From assembly GCA_016190205.1 (NCBI GenBank), contig JACPQZ010000053.1, positions 1 to 32,646 of the forward strand: a DNA stretch of 32,646 nucleotides, read 5' to 3'. The DNA is from Candidatus Omnitrophota bacterium. Lineage in GTDB: Bacteria > Omnitrophota > JACPQZ01. The position numbers and the translations under genes were made by a program. How positions within the stretch are numbered: the stretch's first letter is position 1; each line of letters starts with the position of its first letter. The notes beneath the pieces are model-generated. The model saw nothing but the letters and a program-made list of their open reading frames with translations. It ran no database searches and was not told where the DNA came from. Shown here in pieces: positions 8,322 to 31,416 of this stretch.

Positions 8322-10850
8322 GTGAAGATCATGATCGGATACCCGCCCATTGAATCTGACAAGGGGGTCGCGCTCCTTTCGCAGAACCGCCAGTTTCAGT
8401 ATTTTAATAATCCCACCTTCATCTATCCCGTCATTCCCGCCTATGCGGCCACTTTTCTAAAAAATGCGGGGTACGACGTACTTTGGGCCGACGGCATCGC
8501 GGAACGGAAAACCATGGATGCCTACGTCAAGGAATTCGAGGGCTTCAGGCCCGATCTCTACGTCTGCGAGGTGAAGACCCCTGTGGTCAAGCGCATCTGG
8601 GAGGCCCTGCGGATTTTGAAGGAACACCGTCCCGAAACCAAGCTGGTTCTCATGGGCGATCATATCACGGCCCTGCCGGAGGAATCCTTCGCGCACTCGC
8701 CTGTGGACTACTGCCTGACGAGCGGCAATTTTGATTTTTCGCTTTTGAATCTTGTTAATCACCTGGCCCGCGGCGAGACGCTCAAACCCGGCGTCTACTG
8801 GCGCGACGGCGACCAGGTCAAAAACAGCGGCCATTTTGTGCAGGATCAGTCGCTCCAGAACCTGCCCTTCATTGACCGAGAATTAACCAATTGGAAACTC
8901 TATGCTTATAACAATGGTAATTTCAAGCATCTGCCGGGCACGTATTCAATGATCGGCCGGGACTGCTTTGTGGCAGGCACCCTGATCGAGACGTCCGAGG
9001 GACAGGTACCGGTTGAGCACATTCACGTCAATCACTTCGCCCGCACGCACACGGGCCGCTACGGACGTGTATTCGAAGCGCGCTCGCGCCTAGTCCCGCA
9101 TACAGTGCTCGTGAAACCCTATTGCAACGTCACGGTGCAATGCACGCCCGAGCACCCTTTTTGGACGAGACGTGGATGGATGGAAGCCAAGAATCTGACG
9201 ACCGAAGATTATGTCGGTTACCGCTGCGAACGTGGGTCAAGTGACGCAACGCATCTCTACAGTCTTCCTATGGAAGAGGAAGACATGTGGTTTTACGGTC
9301 TGTATGTGGCTGAAGGCTATGCAGCTAAGCATGGGCGCCAGGACGTGACTCTCACGCTGGGGATGAAAGAAGATACCCTGCGCCAGCGACTTATGGATTA
9401 TGCCGCTCACAGGGGCTATCACGCGCGCATGAGAGTTATAAGGACGGCCCAGCAGGTTATTGTAAACGGACCCGGGTTGCTGGACGGTCTCAAAGCCCTC
9501 TTCGGGCTGGGTGCGCACTCAAAAGGAATACATCCTGCGATACAACAGCTTCCCACCGCAAAACTCCGCGCATTTTTGGACGGTTACTACGCGGGCGACG
9601 GCCATTTGGACAAACGTCATAAGGCATTGGGTTGTGTCACTGTTTCTAAGAGACTTTCCCTTGATCTTAGAAACGTGCTTCTTCGATGTAAGATTATAAG
9701 TTCAGTGTACAAAGAGGGCTTGTATGAAGGTTTCATCGGTGGGCGAGTAATACGAGGGCGCTGGGCGCCGTACCGGCTGAACGTAACGCGCCAGTTTTCA
9801 GGGGCATGGGGGCTTATCGCGCCTACTCTGTGCCCGGATACTATGGAGGGGAGGGTCCCAGCAGGGCTGCAATATGAAGGCAAGACCATTGCTTTTATTG
9901 AGAAAGATTTCGTGTGGTACAGGGTTCGCAAGATCGGCGAGGGCGGCGAGGCAACGGTCTACAATTTTTCGGTCGAAGGGGACCAGTCTTATATCGCCGA
10001 CGGCCTTGCTGTCCATAATTGTTGGTGGCGTCAGGATGGCGGTTGCACATTTTGCTCCTGGACCACGACCTTTCCTAAATTTCAGTGCGGGACGCCGGAG
10101 CACATGCTGGGCGAGGTCGAGCACCTCTCCAAAAACTATGGCATCCGGGAAGTATTTGACGACACGGGAACCTTCCCGATCGGCGGATGGCTTGAGAAGT
10201 TCTGTAAGGGGTTAATCGAACGGGGCTTGAACAAAAAGATCAGGATGGGCTGTAACATGCGGCCCGGCGCCATCGGTCAGAAAGAGTACGACATGATGGG
10301 GAAGGCGGGTTTCAGGTTTATTCTGTATGGTCTCGAATCCGCAAATCAGAATACCCTCGACCGCATCAACAAAGGCCAGAAACCAGGGGATATGTGGAAC
10401 TCCGCGCGGATGGCAAAGCGGGCGGGCTTAGACCCCCACGTCACTTGCATGGTGGGCTACCCCTGGGAATCGAAGGAAGAGGCCAGGGCCACGATCGAGA
10501 TGACCAAAAAGCTGTTCCAGCGCGGCTGGATAGACACCCTGCAGGCGACGATAGTCATCCCTTATCCCGGCACCCAGCTCTTCAAGCAGTGCGAGGAAAA
10601 GGGGTGGCTCAAGACGAGGGACTGGGATGATTACGACATGCGCGGGCCCGTGATGAAATGCCCCATACCCGATGACGAAGTCATGGCCCTCACACAGGGG
10701 ATTTACAAATCCGCGATCACGCCGCTCTATCTCGTCCGTAAGGTCTTAAGCATCCGCACGGCCGACGATGTGAAATACCTCTGGCGGGCGGTCCTGGCCA
10801 TGTGGGGGCATTTATCCGACTTTTCGCTCGACCAGGTGCGCAAGACATGA
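8322..10850 (+). CDS. B12-binding-domain radical SAM protein interrupted by an intein
   Basis: An 842-residue precursor. After removal of a 352-residue intein (residues 215-566) the extein is 490 residues. The N-terminal extein (1-214) looks like a cobalamin-binding Rossmann domain (PAYAATFLKNAGYDVLWAD, 39-57; LVLMGDHIT, 108-116). The C-terminal extein (567-842) is a radical SAM barrel: an iron-sulfur motif with Cys at 567, 575 and 578 (CX7CX2C in the spliced protein), then FDDTGTFP, ILYGLES and the end pattern VIPYPGTQLFKQ. Such enzymes make methylations, C-C bonds or rearrangements on lipids and sugars; the substrate here is unknown. Strong Shine-Dalgarno AGGAGGAG at 8306-8313, eight bases before GTG 8322. 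Overlaps the next gene by ATGA. See the separate intein entry. Confidence 0.92.
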   Translation: MKIMIGYPPIESDKGVALLSQNRQFQYFNNPTFIYPVIPAYAATFLKNAGYDVLWADGIAERKTMDAYVKEFEGFRPDLYVCEVKTPVVKRIWEALRILKEHRPETKLVLMGDHITALPEESFAHSPVDYCLTSGNFDFSLLNLVNHLARGETLKPGVYWRDGDQVKNSGHFVQDQSLQNLPFIDRELTNWKLYAYNNGNFKHLPGTYSMIGRDCFVAGTLIETSEGQVPVEHIHVNHFARTHTGRYGRVFEARSRLVPHTVLVKPYCNVTVQCTPEHPFWTRRGWMEAKNLTTEDYVGYRCERGSSDATHLYSLPMEEEDMWFYGLYVAEGYAAKHGRQDVTLTLGMKEDTLRQRLMDYAAHRGYHARMRVIRTAQQVIVNGPGLLDGLKALFGLGAHSKGIHPAIQQLPTAKLRAFLDGYYAGDGHLDKRHKALGCVTVSKRLSLDLRNVLLRCKIISSVYKEGLYEGFIGGRVIRGRWAPYRLNVTRQFSGAWGLIAPTLCPDTMEGRVPAGLQYEGKTIAFIEKDFVWYRVRKIGEGGEATVYNFSVEGDQSYIADGLAVHNCWWRQDGGCTFCSWTTTFPKFQCGTPEHMLGEVEHLSKNYGIREVFDDTGTFPIGGWLEKFCKGLIERGLNKKIRMGCNMRPGAIGQKEYDMMGKAGFRFILYGLESANQNTLDRINKGQKPGDMWNSARMAKRAGLDPHVTCMVGYPWESKEEARATIEMTKKLFQRGWIDTLQATIVIPYPGTQLFKQCEEKGWLKTRDWDDYDMRGPVMKCPIPDDEVMALTQGIYKSAITPLYLVRKVLSIRTADDVKYLWRAVLAMWGHLSDFSLDQVRKT
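8964..10019 (+). other. Full-length intein with LAGLIDADG homing endonuclease
   Basis: An in-frame insertion of 352 residues inside the radical SAM gene. It begins with nucleophile Cys1 in block A (CFVAGTLIETSEG), block B has TPEH at 61-64, and it ends in His351-Asn352 followed by extein Cys+1, the full set for standard class 1 protein splicing. Block F reads VYNFSVEGDQSYIADG, with Gln341 where His is common. The middle carries two LAGLIDADG-type motifs: FYGLYVAEG (110-118, acidic Glu117) and FLDGYYAGDG (204-213, acidic Asp212), so the endonuclease looks intact. GC falls to about 22 of 60 bases at 9661-9720. A Hedgehog/BIL-type Hint domain is unlikely because homology to the host protein resumes exactly after the insertion. 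Confidence 0.95.
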
Positions 10851-23286: not shown

Positions 23287-24182
23287 CAGAAGAAAAAAGG
23301 GCTATCGGAAAGGCCACTATTCTCATTCCAGCCTTCAATGAAGAGGAGGCGATTCCCCCTGTCATCGAAGCCGTCCGCCGGGCCATGGACTCAAGCCGCA
23401 TCCCTTATGAAGTGCTCGTGGTGGACGACGGCTCCACCGACTCGACGCGCGAGAAGGCCTTGGCGGCCGGCGCCCGCGTCATCTCGCTTGAGACCAATCG
23501 CGGAACGGGCGCCGCGCGCACGCGGGGCATCCTCAAGGCGGAGGGGGAATGTATCGCCATGCTCGACGCAGACGGAAGCTACCCGGCCGACCGGCTGCCC
23601 GAACTTATCCGGGGCCTCGAGGCCTGTGACATGACCGTGGGGGCGCGCACGACGGAGGCCGGCACCCTTAAATTCTTGAGGGCCCCTGTGAAGGCGCTTA
23701 TTAAAGGGCTTGCCGAATATATGATGCGGAGGCGTATCCCGGATCTCAATACCGGCATGCGGGCGTTCCGCAAAAAAACCGCGTTAAGGTTTTTGTATCT
23801 TCTGCCGGACACGCACTCGTGGGTGAGCACCATTACCCTCGCGTACCTCGCGAACGGGCTCGACGTTCGTTATATGCCGATTTCTTATCACAAGCGGATC
23901 GGCCGCTCCAGCTTTCATCCGCTCCGGGATACGTACAACATGGTGAGCCTGTCGGCAAGAACGGTGATGTACTTTTTTCCCTTACGCGTTTTTCTTCCTT
24001 TGGCCTTCCTGCTCGCCGGGGCGGGGGTGGCCAAGTCACTCTACAGCTACTTCGTGTCTGTCGGGCGCCTGCAGCAGTCGGACATCGTGATCTTGCTTAC
24101 CGCTGTTATGGTGACGGCCGTGGGACTTTTGGCGGACTTAATCGTTGTGCACGGGCGGCGCATCCATATGGAGGAAGACTAG
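23283..24182 (+). CDS. GT2 glycosyltransferase, DPM1-like with two C-terminal membrane helices
   Basis: A 299-residue GT2: ATILIPAFNEEEAI (11-24), VLVVDDGSTDST (44-55), TNRGTGAARTRGI (71-83) and AMLDADGSYP (92-101). The C-terminal third carries two hydrophobic stretches (about 230-255 and 264-290), the layout of GtrB/DPM1-type polyprenyl-phosphate glycosyltransferases. This is the third such enzyme of the window besides 6566-8305 and 16711-17436, so several different lipid-linked sugars may be made. The start is ATG 23283 in an ATGA overlap. Confidence 0.89.
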   Translation: MTEEKRAIGKATILIPAFNEEEAIPPVIEAVRRAMDSSRIPYEVLVVDDGSTDSTREKALAAGARVISLETNRGTGAARTRGILKAEGECIAMLDADGSYPADRLPELIRGLEACDMTVGARTTEAGTLKFLRAPVKALIKGLAEYMMRRRIPDLNTGMRAFRKKTALRFLYLLPDTHSWVSTITLAYLANGLDVRYMPISYHKRIGRSSFHPLRDTYNMVSLSARTVMYFFPLRVFLPLAFLLAGAGVAKSLYSYFVSVGRLQQSDIVILLTAVMVTAVGLLADLIVVHGRRIHMEED

Positions 24183-24186
24183 GTCC

Positions 24187-25914
24187 ATGGACGTTTCGGC
24201 CTACGAGCGGCGTATCGCGGAGCTCCTGCCCCGGTTCTTGACCCATCTCGACAGCAATCCTTTTTCTCCCACCTTCGGCTGCATGGACCGGGACTGGTGG
24301 CACTATAAGATTCAGGCCTTCCCAAGCGCCACATACCAGCAGGGGGTGCTGGTCCTCGCGTGGCTTTACCGGCACGGGGCCCCGGGGATTCCGGCTCACT
24401 CTCCGGAGGTCCTCCGGGCCATAGCCGCAGCGCTAAAGTTCTGGGCAAAAATTCAGCACAGGGACGGCTCCTTTGACGAATGGTATCCCCAGGAGCACAG
24501 CTTTGTGGCCACGGCGTTTACCACCCATGCCGTTTCAGAAGTCTGGCTCGAGCTGGGGAACCAGATCACTAAAAGCACGGGCTGGAGCGCGAGCGATACC
24601 CTTGAGCGGGCGGGTGAATGGCTTTTGCGCCACGACGACCTTATGCTTTCGAACCACCAGGCGGGAAAGATCGCGGCGCTCCATAATTTAAGTCTCTTTT
24701 TTCCCGGCGGGAGATTCGGCACGGGTGCAAGGCTGGCACTTGAGAGGCTTATCAAGGTGCAACACCCCGAAGAAGGCTGGTTCCCTGAATATGGAGGGGC
24801 GGATCCGGGCTATCAAAGCGTGACCTTCGATTATCTGGCTCAATATTTCAACAGGTCACGAGACGACAACGTGGTCTTGCCCCTTGAAAAGGCGTCCTAT
24901 TTTCTAAGTTGGTTTCTCCACCCCGACGGATCGGTGGGGGGGACCTATGGCTCGCGGAACGCGCGCTATCTGTTCACGCATGGTCTCGAGCTCGTGGCAG
25001 ATAGAATTCCCCCGGCTGCCGCGATCCTTGACAAGATGAACCTCCTGGGAGGGGAAGACCTCCCTTGGCTGCCCAAGGGGATGGATGCGCGCTATCTAAT
25101 CTTCTTTTTCCTGCCCAATCTTTTAGGTGCGTACGAAGTACGCAAGGAAAGAAAGGAACCCCACCCGCGTGAATTTTTTCTGGAGGAGGCGACACGCTTT
25201 TTTGAGGGGGCGGGCCTATGGGTCGCAAGGCGTAAGCATTATTACGCGGTGGTAAACGTCCGCAAGGGCGGCGTCCTGCGGGCACACGCTCGCGAGCGAA
25301 CCGGTCCGGGCCGCTTGGCTGTGGTGGATGGCGGGTATTTTGTCCGGACTCGCGGTTCCCGCGTGGCGGCTTCGCACGCCTTGCAGGTGAAGCCGTCCCG
25401 GGACTTCGGATACGAGGCGAAAGAGCTCCTGCCCGGCAAGTGGAAAATATGCTGCCGCGCCCCTTTTGTTTGGGTGAAACACTTTTCTCCCAGTCCCCTG
25501 CGTCAGGCGCTATTTTATATTTTTCTTGTAACGGTGGGGAGGATTCCTTGGGTCCGGCACAAGCTCGACGCCTGGCTTCGCAACGCGCTCGTCAGGCGCC
25601 AGATCCGCGCCCCCTACCGGCTTGAGCGGACCATCGTGTTCTCTGCCGAGGGCGTTGATATTGAGGACAAAATTACGCGTTCTCGTCGCGGTGCAAGAGC
25701 GCTCTCGCTAGGCAGGGCCAACGATCACACATCCATACACGTCCCGAGCTCGCTCCAATACTCGGCGGCCGACCGGTGGGAAGGTTGGGGGGTGGAGCCG
25801 GCGGCTGTCGCCGAGCATCTCAATCAGACTGGGGAGGCGACCCTCACCCTGCACCGCGATTTTCTGAAATCGGAGCTCGAATCTGTGGAGACGCATGAAA
25901 CACGCCCGCAATGA
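24187..25914 (+). CDS. Conserved-looking protein of unknown function, alpha/alpha-toroid-like N-terminal domain
   Basis: A 575-residue protein I cannot name with confidence. Residues about 15-330 have a repeating helix pattern with aromatic loops (MDRDWWHYKIQAFPSATYQQG begins near 33; RDGSFDEWYPQEHSF near 97; HPEEGWFPEYGGADPGYQSV near 200; HPDGSVGGTYGSRN near 248), resembling the (alpha/alpha)6 barrels of heparinase II/III-, alginate lyase- and glycosidase-like families. Residues 350-575 look more beta-rich, as in the C-terminal sheet domain of those lyases. No signal peptide is visible, so it may act in the cytoplasm. An alternative is a terpene-cyclase-like toroid. It overlaps the methyltransferase by 20 bases. 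ATG 24187 is preferred over an in-frame start at 24145 lying inside the previous gene. Confidence 0.75.
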   Translation: MDVSAYERRIAELLPRFLTHLDSNPFSPTFGCMDRDWWHYKIQAFPSATYQQGVLVLAWLYRHGAPGIPAHSPEVLRAIAAALKFWAKIQHRDGSFDEWYPQEHSFVATAFTTHAVSEVWLELGNQITKSTGWSASDTLERAGEWLLRHDDLMLSNHQAGKIAALHNLSLFFPGGRFGTGARLALERLIKVQHPEEGWFPEYGGADPGYQSVTFDYLAQYFNRSRDDNVVLPLEKASYFLSWFLHPDGSVGGTYGSRNARYLFTHGLELVADRIPPAAAILDKMNLLGGEDLPWLPKGMDARYLIFFFLPNLLGAYEVRKERKEPHPREFFLEEATRFFEGAGLWVARRKHYYAVVNVRKGGVLRAHARERTGPGRLAVVDGGYFVRTRGSRVAASHALQVKPSRDFGYEAKELLPGKWKICCRAPFVWVKHFSPSPLRQALFYIFLVTVGRIPWVRHKLDAWLRNALVRRQIRAPYRLERTIVFSAEGVDIEDKITRSRRGARALSLGRANDHTSIHVPSSLQYSAADRWEGWGVEPAAVAEHLNQTGEATLTLHRDFLKSELESVETHETRPQ

Positions 25915-26759: not shown

Positions 26760-26871
26760 GCTGCGCCCTGCGTCCTGCAGCAGTCGGCAGTCGGCTGTCG
26801 GCGGTCAACTGTGGACTGTGGACTGTGGACTGTGGACCAACGACGGACGACGGACGACGGACGACGGACGA
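26760..26871. repeat. Degenerate heptamer tandem array, about 16 units
   Basis: A continuous 7-base period over 112 bases. Units drift stepwise: GCTGCGC, CCTGCGT, CCTGCAG (26760-26780), then CAGTCGG twice, CTGTCGG, CGGTCAA, then CTGTGGA four times (26809-26836), CCAACGA, and CGGACGA four times (26844-26871). It fills most of the gap between the methyltransferase stop (26746) and the radical SAM start (26882). The right edge gives the GAGG (26870-26873) that serves as Shine-Dalgarno eight bases before the ATG. The layout resembles cyanobacterial STRR heptamer repeats in form; identity with any known family is not claimed. Confidence 0.9.
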
Positions 26872-26881
26872 GGATTTTGGC

Positions 26882-28330
26882 ATGAAGATAACAGTTGTCG
26901 TTCCCCCGAGCAAGTACAGCCGCAACGTGGCGCGCGACCTCATCTGGGGCTGCTGGTGCAAAGGCAAGCGCATCGCGGGCACCCAGTTCGATCCGGTTTC
27001 CCAGCTCATCGTGGTAACTCTGCTCAAAGAAGAGGGGCATGAGGCGCGGCTGCTCGACGCGGCCGGCTTGCAGATGGGGGTGGAAGAGGCCCAGGGCCGG
27101 ATGGCCGGCGACGATATCGCCATCGTGCTCACCAATACCGTCACGGTAAACGAAGACGCGCAGTTTCTGGCAGGTATCAAGCGCGTAAATCCCAAACTCA
27201 AGACGATCGTGTACGGAAATCACCCCACTTTTTATCCGCAGGATACGGCCGCCAAAGACGGGATGGATTTCTGCGTTCACAAGGAGGCGGAATGGGTGAT
27301 CCGTGACCTGGTGCGGGCGCTCGACCGGGGGGAGGACCCCGGCGCTGTCAAGGGCATCACCTTTAGGCGCGACGGCCGTTTCGTGACCACCGAGCCGTAC
27401 CCGTACATTCGCAATTTGGACGAACTGCCCGTTCCCGACCGCTCCCAGCTCCCACAAGGCATCACTTATTTTAACCCTATCGTAAAATTTATGCCCTTTA
27501 CCACCATGACCACGACCCGGGGTTGCCCGGCCAAGTGCAATTACTGCAGCGCCCCGCCTTTTTACGGGCGGATCTACCGCGCCCAGTCACCCCAGCGTGT
27601 GGTGGATGAGATGGCCCAGATCGAAAAGATGGGTTACCGGGAGGTTTTTTTCAGGGACGAGGTCTTCAATTACAAGCGGACCCGCGTCATGGAGATCTGC
27701 AAGCTCCTGATTCAGAACAGGATCAGGCTTTCCTGGATCGTGAGCTCACGCGTGGACACGGTAGATAAGGAGATGCTCGAGGCCATGAAGGAGGCCGGCT
27801 GTCACATGCTCCGTTTCGGCGTGGAGTCGGGTGACCAGGGGATTCTGGACAATATCGAGAAGGGGGCTACGCTCGAGCAGGCGCGTCAGGCCTTCCAGTG
27901 GATTCATGAGACGGGGCTCGAGGCACACTGCCACGCCATGATGGGGATGCCGGGCGAGACCCGCGAGACGTTGGAAAAGACCATCCGGTTTATCCTGGAG
28001 CTAGAGCCCACCACGATGACGTGCGGGATTTGCACCCCCTATCCGGGGACGCCCCTATTTGACCGGGTGCTTCAAACCAATCCCGACATCGGCGACGGGA
28101 GCCAAAAGGACCTGGCCTCGCTCCACATGCAAGGTTTTCACAACGACGTATTTACGGAAGTTCCGCAGGTGGAGCTGGCGCGGGGCATTCGCAGGCTTTA
28201 TCGAAACTTCTATTTAAGACCCTCCTATATCTGGAGGACTTTCAAGCGGCTCAAGAGTTTCGATGAACTTCGGCGCGTCGTCATGGCCGCTGGGCATGTC
28301 TTTGGTTTCTCCGTATTGGGTGAAGAATAA
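26882..28330 (+). CDS. B12-binding-domain radical SAM protein
   Basis: A 482-residue protein with a cobalamin-binding-like N-terminal domain (VVTLLKEEGHEARLLDA, 44-60; IVYGNHPTFYP, 109-119) and a radical SAM domain with the canonical cluster C215xxxC219xxC222 (TRGCPAKCNYC). Further marks are FRDEVFNY, LRFGVESGDQGIL and GMPGETRETLEKT, the usual beta-strand glycines for SAM and backbone contacts. It is the second such enzyme of the window and has no intein. Possible roles are methylation, cyclisation or rearrangement of a lipid or sugar; the substrate is not evident. ATG 26882 is preferred over a GTG at 26825 inside the heptamer array, because the array is not conserved-looking protein sequence. 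A short gap of 17 to 56 bases leads to the next gene. Confidence 0.9.
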   Translation: MKITVVVPPSKYSRNVARDLIWGCWCKGKRIAGTQFDPVSQLIVVTLLKEEGHEARLLDAAGLQMGVEEAQGRMAGDDIAIVLTNTVTVNEDAQFLAGIKRVNPKLKTIVYGNHPTFYPQDTAAKDGMDFCVHKEAEWVIRDLVRALDRGEDPGAVKGITFRRDGRFVTTEPYPYIRNLDELPVPDRSQLPQGITYFNPIVKFMPFTTMTTTRGCPAKCNYCSAPPFYGRIYRAQSPQRVVDEMAQIEKMGYREVFFRDEVFNYKRTRVMEICKLLIQNRIRLSWIVSSRVDTVDKEMLEAMKEAGCHMLRFGVESGDQGILDNIEKGATLEQARQAFQWIHETGLEAHCHAMMGMPGETRETLEKTIRFILELEPTTMTCGICTPYPGTPLFDRVLQTNPDIGDGSQKDLASLHMQGFHNDVFTEVPQVELARGIRRLYRNFYLRPSYIWRTFKRLKSFDELRRVVMAAGHVFGFSVLGEE

Positions 28331-28386: not shown

Positions 28387-31300
28387 GTGCTGGCACCCGT
28401 CGCCGTTTTCCACCGCTTCCTTTTCTTCGGAATCCCGATGGAGGTGATCGGCGGCGATTCCCTGCGCGTCTGGTCCGGAAACGGGACTCCCGTCTTTGAT
28501 TTCCTGAGGTCCCTCGCGGCGGGACACGGCCTGCCGGCCTGGAGCGAATCCTTCTCCCGCCCCCACTTTAACCTGACCTCGGAACTTGCGCCCCTTTTCG
28601 AAACCCTGATCCAGTTTTTTACGCGGGATATCGCCGCCACGGTGAAGGCGGACACCTTCCTCCACCTCATCACGGGCGGGCTGGGGGCGTATTTCTTGAG
28701 CCGCCGGCTTTTTAGAGACGGGGCCGCGGCATTCTTAACCGGTCTCCTCTATATTTTTCTCCCTTTCAATATCTCCACCCTGCAGGCCGAGATGGGCAGG
28801 GCCTGGGGCCCCATGCTCGCGCCTTTTGCGTATCTCGCGCTGGTTAACGTGATCTGGAGGCCCAGCCTCATCAGTGTGTGGTCCTGCGCGTTCGTGCTGG
28901 GTCTTGCCACCCTCTGCCATCCCGAATATGTGTTTCTAACGGGATTTTTCATGGTATTCGCGGCCGCGCTCATTTTCATCTTTCGCCCTCCGCTTAATTA
29001 TGGCACGTCCCAAGTCCCACGTCCCACGCAAGCTCTTCCAGCCCTCTTCGCAGTCCTCGTCCTGTTCATCGGCCTGTGGGGCTTTCACCTCATCTTTTCA
29101 GTTCTCCACGACAATCCCTACACGGTCGTTGAATCTGTGGAAAACTGGCTTAGGCTCAAGGCCCCTCCCAGTCAGGAGGCTGTGCGGCAGTCGCAGCCGC
29201 TATGGACAGCCATAACCCTTCAGCACTGGGAATGGAGGGCCACCCCCATGACCTGGGGGATTGCGCCGCCCCTGGAACCATTATGGATCCTTCCCGGCTT
29301 GAGTTTTCTCGGGGCGGTGATCCTCGCCCCAAAAAACCGCTGGGTTTGGATCTGGACGGCCCTTGCCCTTTTCTCCCTCTGGTTTTCACTGGGGATGCGC
29401 GTGCGGCCCAGCCTTTTTGAATTCTGTCACGATCACGTGCCTCTGTTTAGTCTCGCCAGGCACCCGAACCGCTTCCTCCTCCATTATTGCCTTGCGGCTG
29501 CCCTTTTTTCGGGGCTTCTATTGAGCCGCCTCTTAACGGCGGCGCTGCGGGGGAGAGGGCTTTGGGTACGTCCCGCCGGCTGCCTCGCGCTTGTTCCTTT
29601 TATATGCGCCGGTTATCTCCAGGGCACGCATTACAACTTTACCTTTCTTCCGGTGGAACAACCTGCCTATGTGGACGCGATCCGCGGCTGGCTGGATGCG
29701 CGGGATACTGAAAATCACCGCGTCATAGACGGATCCGGGATGCCCCGGCTCTCCACGGTTTCTTTTCGAAGCCATGTCCTGGCGGATGAGCTTCTGCTGC
29801 GCTATCACGCGCGGCCTTTCTCCGCGGATCTCTTGGCCCTTTTGGGTTTTAAATACGTCGCTTTGGGTGACCGGCCCCAGGAGTATGAAAAGATGTTCGG
29901 AAAAAAGGGCTTCATGCCTGACCGCGCGGATGACGCCCAGGACCGCGCGGATGTCCTGGAGTATTTTTCGAATTTGCTGGAACGGAAAGGCGTGGCGGAG
30001 CGGCTTCTGGCACAGCCTGACTGGGTTGCGCATCGGGCCGCGGGAGCTCCTGACGTCGTCATCTTCGAAAACCGGAAGGCGTTCTCCGGTTACGAGCTTT
30101 ATCCTGCTTATGGTGTCTTGACGGTGGGAGGGCCCCATGCCTACTTCGCGCTTGCCTACCCGGAACTTAAGTCCAGGGGCCAGGTTCGTCCGGTGCCCGT
30201 TTTTCTCGCGCAAAGGGCCAATGCTGCCCGAGCGGGTATCCTGGGGGCGACGTCCTCATTTCTATTGCTTCACAACACGGGTCCTATGGATTTGTGGGTA
30301 TCCCGGGACCGGGAAAAAATCCGCTTTTTGGAGGCATACGGCGCCCGCGCGCCTGGCTGGCAGCTCGGGTTTCAAATGACGGGGCTCGCCCAGTTTAATC
30401 CGGCCCTTCCGGCTCTGGACCACGGATATCTCAACCAGCTCTTCGGGAATCTCGTTTTTTCGCGCTTCTTAATGATCACGCAGGGAGCGGCCGAGCCGCT
30501 GCGATTCACATTTGAGGTTCCAGCTCCGGCGCCGCACGAGCCTCGCCTGATGCTGTATCAAATTTTTGTACGGGCCCTGCATGCACCTGAGGCGGGCCCT
30601 GTGGAAATTTTCTTGGACGGGAGATCCCTGGGAAGGCAGGAGCTTAACCAGCGTTCCGGTCTTTGGTGGATTCCTGTGAGGGATCTCACGCTCGGCACCG
30701 GTGGTAAACACACCCTTGAAATCCGGCCCCTCGCACAGGGCTTTGTGGGTATTGATGGGGTTCTGATCGAGCCTCTAGAGGTTGTCGCGGAGGGGCTCTT
30801 GAACGCGCGAAAGGATTTTTCAAATCTTTCCGATCTCTATCTCGTAACTCGGGATCGTGTCCTCAATGCACCCGAAGGGGGAAAGACCTGGGTGGATCTG
30901 CGCAAGCCGGGGACCTATGAGGTTCACCTCGATGCAGATGGTCCGGTTGAAGTGGAGGTTGACGGTGCTCCAGTATCTCCTGGTGCGGCCATTGAACTAG
31001 AAGAAGGTTCGCACGCGATACTTCTGCGCGGGGCAGTGGACACGTTTCGAAGTCTTTTGGTGAAGGATACCGCGAGAGAGGCCAGGATTCCGGCAGTTAA
31101 GGAATTTTCGTACCAGCGGGTGGGGGCAGACCGCATGGATTTTCAGGGGGAGTCGGACTCCCCGTACTTTATGATGCAGCCCGAGACCTATTTCCCGGGC
31201 TGGCAGGCCGATTGGAACGGTCGCGCCACGCCCCCCCTCATTTCGCACCTTTTCCTGAACGCCTATCCCGTGTCCGAGTCCGGGCGGGTTCAGGGACGCA

Positions 31301-31416
31301 TTATTTACCGCAATCCGGTACTTACGGCCCTGGGTTGGTTGAGCGCGCTCATTTTCTTGATTCCCATCGCTCTTTTAGTTTTCAAGAGTAGGCCGCGTGT
31401 AAGGCAACAGACGTGA
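28387..31416 (+). CDS. Large YfhO/GT-C-like membrane protein with beta-rich C-terminal region
   Basis: A 1009-residue protein in the form from GTG 28387. It has about twelve membrane helices in residues 1-420, a long soluble region (about 420-980) with segments typical of carbohydrate-binding modules (VEIFLDGRSLGRQEL; YEVHLDADGPVEVEVDG), and a final TM helix (about 973-1000). The end pattern MQPETYFPGWQADWNG is characteristic of YfhO-like and PF10131-like proteins. Relatives are GT-C enzymes such as mycobacterial AftD, so it may add a sugar to a periplasmic glycan. No Shine-Dalgarno precedes GTG 28387; an AAAGGGGG at 28333-28340 suggests translation may start at ATA 28348, giving 1022 residues. 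A small heptamer repeat lies inside at 29004-29024. Confidence 0.8.
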   Translation: MLAPVAVFHRFLFFGIPMEVIGGDSLRVWSGNGTPVFDFLRSLAAGHGLPAWSESFSRPHFNLTSELAPLFETLIQFFTRDIAATVKADTFLHLITGGLGAYFLSRRLFRDGAAAFLTGLLYIFLPFNISTLQAEMGRAWGPMLAPFAYLALVNVIWRPSLISVWSCAFVLGLATLCHPEYVFLTGFFMVFAAALIFIFRPPLNYGTSQVPRPTQALPALFAVLVLFIGLWGFHLIFSVLHDNPYTVVESVENWLRLKAPPSQEAVRQSQPLWTAITLQHWEWRATPMTWGIAPPLEPLWILPGLSFLGAVILAPKNRWVWIWTALALFSLWFSLGMRVRPSLFEFCHDHVPLFSLARHPNRFLLHYCLAAALFSGLLLSRLLTAALRGRGLWVRPAGCLALVPFICAGYLQGTHYNFTFLPVEQPAYVDAIRGWLDARDTENHRVIDGSGMPRLSTVSFRSHVLADELLLRYHARPFSADLLALLGFKYVALGDRPQEYEKMFGKKGFMPDRADDAQDRADVLEYFSNLLERKGVAERLLAQPDWVAHRAAGAPDVVIFENRKAFSGYELYPAYGVLTVGGPHAYFALAYPELKSRGQVRPVPVFLAQRANAARAGILGATSSFLLLHNTGPMDLWVSRDREKIRFLEAYGARAPGWQLGFQMTGLAQFNPALPALDHGYLNQLFGNLVFSRFLMITQGAAEPLRFTFEVPAPAPHEPRLMLYQIFVRALHAPEAGPVEIFLDGRSLGRQELNQRSGLWWIPVRDLTLGTGGKHTLEIRPLAQGFVGIDGVLIEPLEVVAEGLLNARKDFSNLSDLYLVTRDRVLNAPEGGKTWVDLRKPGTYEVHLDADGPVEVEVDGAPVSPGAAIELEEGSHAILLRGAVDTFRSLLVKDTAREARIPAVKEFSYQRVGADRMDFQGESDSPYFMMQPETYFPGWQADWNGRATPPLISHLFLNAYPVSESGRVQGRIIYRNPVLTALGWLSALIFLIPIALLVFKSRPRVRQQT
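29004..29024. repeat. Short heptamer repeat inside the YfhO/GT-C-like gene
   Basis: Three consecutive 7-base units, CACGTCC (29004-29010), CAAGTCC (29011-29017) and CACGTCC (29018-29024), followed by a partial CACGCAA. The 21 bases equal seven codons, so the frame is kept; they encode a Pro/Gln/Ser-rich loop (about residues 206-214) between two membrane helices. The period matches the larger array at 26760-26871, though the unit differs. Confidence 0.8.

Follow-up and report, generated by a model that had tools for sequence, protein, structure and literature searches.

A Candidatus Omnitrophota bacterium very probably encodes a selfish class 1 homing intein of the LAGLIDADG type, located in a B12-type radical SAM enzyme at an indispensable residue, the first of its cluster cysteines. 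The gene lies in the window analyzed here, that is, the whole stretch of 32,646 nucleotides of contig JACPQZ010000053.1 (assembly GCA_016190205.1), and all features described below are on its forward strand. Among radical SAM enzymes, this cysteine is a new insertion point for inteins, and the element that occupies it is of a known kind. The original prediction placed an intein at positions 8964-10019, splitting the host between Asp214 and Cys567, and the sequence motifs, the profile matches and the gapless alignment of the 490-aa joined exteins all agree with this assignment, to a degree far outside what chance would give.

The precursor gene and its intein

The precursor gene, which combines a B12-binding/radical SAM enzyme with an in-frame intein, occupies positions 8322..10850 and is a single open frame of 842 aa with a GTG start and without stops or frameshifts. 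The N-extein (residues 1-214; 8322..8963), delimited by alignment to intein-free homologues, comprises a B12-binding-like domain and the first barrel strand, which precedes the cluster motif in the model of the intein-free homologue L054, and ends in ..GTYSMIGRD. The C-extein (residues 567-842 and the stop codon; 10020..10850), delimited in the same manner, is the radical SAM barrel and matches Pfam Radical_SAM at residues 573-727 (55.3 bits). The Pfam B12-binding match in the N-extein reached 23.1 bits, under the cut-off of 32.1, and the nearest NCBIfam models, HpnJ and BchE, scored far under their cut-offs. The model of L054 is confident (pLDDT 90.9), and its matches in the PDB are AprD4, MgmA, TsrM, OxsB, CysS and TokK. 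The host gene is surrounded by genes for glycosyltransferases, epimerases, an O-antigen ligase and an asparagine synthase, and because it sits in such a glycan-type cluster, the enzyme likely acts in glycan or lipid-sugar chemistry. The same cluster contains a second B12-binding/radical SAM gene (26825-28330), which lacks an intein, and two open reading frames, 24145-25914 (589 aa) and 28387-31416 (1009 aa), that have no Pfam match at 1e-5.

The intein spans 352 aa, from Cys1 to Asn352, corresponding to residues 215-566 of the precursor (8964..10019), as delimited by profile matches and by alignment to homologues that lack it. The splicing blocks include the block A nucleophile Cys1 (8964..8966), identified in the sequence and in an alignment with ten other inteins; block B, TPEH (T61-H64; 9144..9155), which is the TxxH motif of class 1; and blocks F and G, VYNFSVEGDQSYIADGLAVHN, ending in His351-Asn352 (9957..10019), which were recovered with Pfam Intein_splicing (39.8 bits against a cut-off of 35.8) and with NCBIfam intein_Cterm (28.1 bits on the precursor against a cut-off of 15.6). 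The first LAGLIDADG motif, FYGLYVAEG (9291..9317), contains the acidic Glu117 (VAEG) and aligns with PI-PkoII (2cw7, E 0.0044) and related inteins; the second, FLDGYYAGDG (9573..9602), contains the acidic Asp212 (AGDG) and was found by alignment and with Pfam LAGLIDADG_3 (43.6 bits against a cut-off of 22.5). Membership in class 1 follows from Cys1, TxxH, His351-Asn352 with Cys567 directly behind it, the exact junction and the lack of the insert in homologues, and the two motifs with their acidic residues identify a LAGLIDADG homing endonuclease. The block F Asp column is occupied by Asn334, as it is by Asn in most of the ten aligned inteins; since this Asp is common but not obligatory, the class assignment is unaffected.

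In tblastn searches, residues 1-352 of the intein matched inserts in mycobacteriophage genes over the full length, at about 27% identity, and phage and plasmid searches yielded distant inteins only. The AlphaFold model of the precursor has pLDDT under 50 across most of residues 215-577 and provided no usable model of the intein, so the intein fold is deduced from the sequence. The third-position GC of the intein (0.585) is lower than that of the 23 window genes (0.70 +/- 0.05), as for acquired DNA, with the lowest gene segments also at 0.58.

The insertion site in the host family

The joined exteins align end to end with uninterrupted homologues at 41-66% identity, without a gap at the junction. 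The most similar intein-free homologues are 65-66% identical; identity reaches 66% in Chlamydiae, Nitrospiria and other metagenome-assembled genomes and is 41-56% for uninterrupted homologues from the same phylum. In the phylogenetic tree the window host clusters with sequences from Chlamydiae and Gottesmanbacteria and not with the bulk of the hosts from its phylum. In about 120 homologous loci from many bacterial and archaeal groups (a count that takes in a few loci fetched twice and two precursors with an intein at the third cysteine), the window insert is missing and the sequence is continuous through the site. The Arg-Asp ahead of the site and the Cys behind it are near-invariant.

In agreement with the original prediction, sequence and homologue alignment place the +1 residue of the intein at the first Cys of CWWRQDGGCTFC, the CX7CX2C cluster motif (10020..10055) formed by C567, C575 and C578, all three invariant in homologues. 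Judged from the sequence, the two predicted uses of this one cysteine, as the +1 splice residue and as a cluster ligand, are real. CX7CX2C is present in 18 of the approximately 120 loci, the remainder having CX4CX2C, and the loop of the closest sister sequence, L056, is longer still. An origin of CX7CX2C as an insertion scar was considered and ruled out, given that the 18 homologues that share it are intein-free and the loop varies in length; with L056 and these 18 loci all having long loops, the longer loop is a trait of the family.

No intein at the same site was detected in 384 genomes of the phylum, searched with both the host and the intein, in viral contigs, or in the best 80 contig loci, a search in which lower-scoring intein-bearing relatives could be missed. 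A second, intein-free copy of the host was not seen in the genome of the window at E <= 1e-40. No closely related allele, empty or filled, was seen, because a single genome represents the window's class in the comparison. The suggested novelty of the insertion thus stands for the exact site, found nowhere else searched, but not for the type of host, as inteins in radical SAM enzymes are already known.

The proposal that the host binds no cluster until splicing is complete finds no support in that form: because the insert precedes the first cysteine, it leaves the motif with all three cluster cysteines undivided within the C-extein of the unspliced protein. A cluster on the precursor, if formed, would tie up the +1 splicing nucleophile. 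Substrate would very likely be kept out by an insert of 40 kDa at the active-site loop, and the precursor is presumably inactive.

Inteins at iron-sulfur cysteines across the phylum

Inteins are abundant in this phylum, with Intein_splicing matches in 142 of the 384 genomes and nine or more in some of them. Two members of the same host family, L046:6771-8219 (genome G107) and L047:6574-8016 (genome G268), are interrupted by a different intein immediately ahead of the third of their cluster cysteines, with the junctions CWWGKCTF↓C..(K/S)N↓CSWP (arrows mark the splice sites). The second cysteine of the host is at -3, and Cys1 of the intein replaces the third ligand, restoring CX4CX2C in the precursor. 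These inteins share with the window intein the enzyme family, the cluster loop and the full-length LAGLIDADG type, but end in Lys-Asn or Ser-Asn, whereas the window intein ends in His-Asn, and they are only 22-23% identical to it and are therefore not its alleles. Occupancy of the third-cysteine site is patchy: it is filled in G268 and empty in G373 of the same genus, and the closest kin of the third-cysteine hosts in the tree (75% identity) lack the intein. A viral search with the third-cysteine intein gave no match.

Other iron-sulfur proteins of the phylum are interrupted in a comparable manner. An NrdG2-type activase (L145) has an intein before the third radical SAM cysteine (CNFRCPY↓C), as do four AmmeMemoRadiSam radical SAM enzymes (L153, L155, L158 and L164), at C-x-x-x-C-x-Y↓C-Q-N-W. 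In IscU/NifU scaffold proteins (L146, L147, L149-L152, L154 and L165), inteins are placed at either of two ligand cysteines: seven genomes have the site GNPV↓CGD and one has the site FKTFG↓CGAA. Across the endonuclease half, identity between the third-cysteine and the IscU inteins is about 32%. The window intein is just 22-26% identical to any of these inteins, so the insertions at the first and third cysteines look independent on sequence grounds. In DnaG primase (L159 and L160), inteins interrupt the sequence right at a cysteine of the zinc ribbon (HCFG↓CG). A literature search at the level of titles and abstracts, whose coverage mostly excludes subscription papers, for inteins together with radical SAM, IscU or NifU found no such sites reported.

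These loci form a natural series of inteins on iron-sulfur ligands, including the first and third cysteines of one family, two other radical SAM families and two IscU sites. The series is a more interesting by-product of the analysis than the window intein itself: with matched sites that either have or lack a Cys at -3, it makes directly testable whether inteins ever act as regulators gated by metal or redox state or are pure parasites.

Splicing, homing and known systems

Splicing of the window precursor would most likely follow the standard route, in which an N-to-S acyl shift at Cys1 would be followed by transfer to Cys567 (+1), cyclization of Asn352 and an S-to-N shift. The product would be the 490-aa enzyme, in which Cys567 would go on to bind iron. 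The endonuclease of the intein is predicted to cleave DNA. Under selfish homing, DNA at an invariant catalytic cysteine would always be available as a target, the host cysteine would supply the +1 nucleophile for free, and imprecise loss of the intein would destroy the enzyme; regulation of splicing is presumably missing. A selfish insertion at a catalytic site, as put forward in the original prediction, is supported by the anatomy of the element, its intact splicing and endonuclease residues, the empty sites in homologues, the sporadic presence of inteins in the family and the usual pattern of placement.

A continuous reading frame is all that would speak for the 352 residues being a normal accessory domain of the host family rather than an intein, and this reading has next to no probability. 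The check proposed for it, an alignment of homologues, refuted it, as the insert is missing from the roughly 120 loci mentioned above, across many bacterial and archaeal groups, and the intein profiles matched above their curated cut-offs. A dead or cleaving intein, with exteins that are no longer ligated and a gene that is either inactive or working as two pieces, is likewise highly improbable. It would be in line with the Asn that replaces the usual block F Asp and with the Asp at -1, a residue that can favor side cleavage at the N-junction of an intein. However, Cys1, TxxH, His-Asn, the +1 Cys and both acidic residues of the endonuclease are intact, the frame is free of stops and frameshifts, and the exteins retain the invariant residues of the host family.

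A further reading is a switch gated by the cluster or by redox state, in which the insert would be retained on account of its +1 Cys belonging to the intact CX7CX2C of the precursor: a [4Fe-4S] cluster or oxidation there would cap this Cys and hold the enzyme unspliced until reducing, cluster-free conditions release it. For the window intein we consider such a switch quite unlikely; its phylum-wide version, in which inteins repeatedly settled on ligand cysteines that would double as splicing nucleophiles in the precursor, so that cluster occupancy or oxidation would gate maturation post-translationally, we consider unlikely. At the third-cysteine site, Cys1 of the intein would complete a CX2C with the second cysteine of the host; at the first-cysteine site of the window, the +1 Cys would act within the intact CX7CX2C. 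The contiguity of the three cluster cysteines in the precursor and the recurrence of inteins at the third cysteine of the host family, in NrdG2 and AmmeMemoRadiSam enzymes and at the two IscU sites are consistent with gating, and there are precedents: splicing of the Pyrococcus abyssi MoaA intein, in a radical SAM host, is reported to be blocked by a disulfide between Cys-3 and Cys1 (Callahan et al. 2011, as reviewed in PMC3922620 and PMC10663303), and a mycobacterial DnaB intein is oxidized through a disulfide (PMC6195587). Against gating in the window host, positions -5 to -1 are MIGRD, with no N-extein cysteine near the junction; because the residue at -3 is not a cysteine, the MoaA-type redox trap is missing.

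Nor do the iron-sulfur sites need a special reason, because many inteins of the phylum occupy non-metal catalytic sites. Inteins of the phylum interrupt GyrA, GyrB, UDP-sugar dehydrogenases, RNR and further proteins at conserved non-metal residues, and DnaG too at a conserved position. The genome of the window has a second intein, in GyrA, after GQGNFG (G000:C27:59166-60701; L001 and L002), with an endonuclease region that looks to be of the HNH type. The host has just ten near-invariant C/S/T positions, the three cluster cysteines among them, so that the chance of both intein sites falling on cluster cysteines is about 0.07 (3/45 pairs). According to PMC3359363, the mean distance to active-site residues is 8.3 A for native intein sites and 21.1 A for the remaining C/S/T sites. 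Given the wealth of inteins at non-metal sites in the phylum, this chance and the clustering of inteins near active sites, placement at a cluster cysteine is the usual intein pattern, and gating is a minority hypothesis relative to selfish homing.

Among known systems, MoaA of P. abyssi, as the reviews describe it, resembles the window host in that the intein lies within an oxygen-sensitive radical SAM enzyme, with catalytic cysteines at the junction. Unlike MoaA, in which Cys-3 pairs with Cys1, the window host has Gly at -3 and no upstream cysteine at the junction; the MoaA geometry, Cys at -3 together with Cys1, is instead shared by L046, L047, L145, L153, L155, L158 and L164. The intein-containing tetraether lipid synthase Tes (NCBIfam NF045703) also combines a radical SAM enzyme with a LAGLIDADG intein, and its profile weakly matches the window intein. 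Tes is, however, a different enzyme, and the profile coordinates suggest that its intein sits at or close to the third cysteine rather than ahead of the first. In Mycobacterium smegmatis DnaBi1, the P-loop intein, the residue at +1 likewise coordinates a metal in the mature host, where it is catalytic (PMC6195587). DnaBi1 is a class 3 mini-intein without an endonuclease and with Ser at +1, whereas the window intein belongs to class 1, contains an endonuclease and has Cys at +1.
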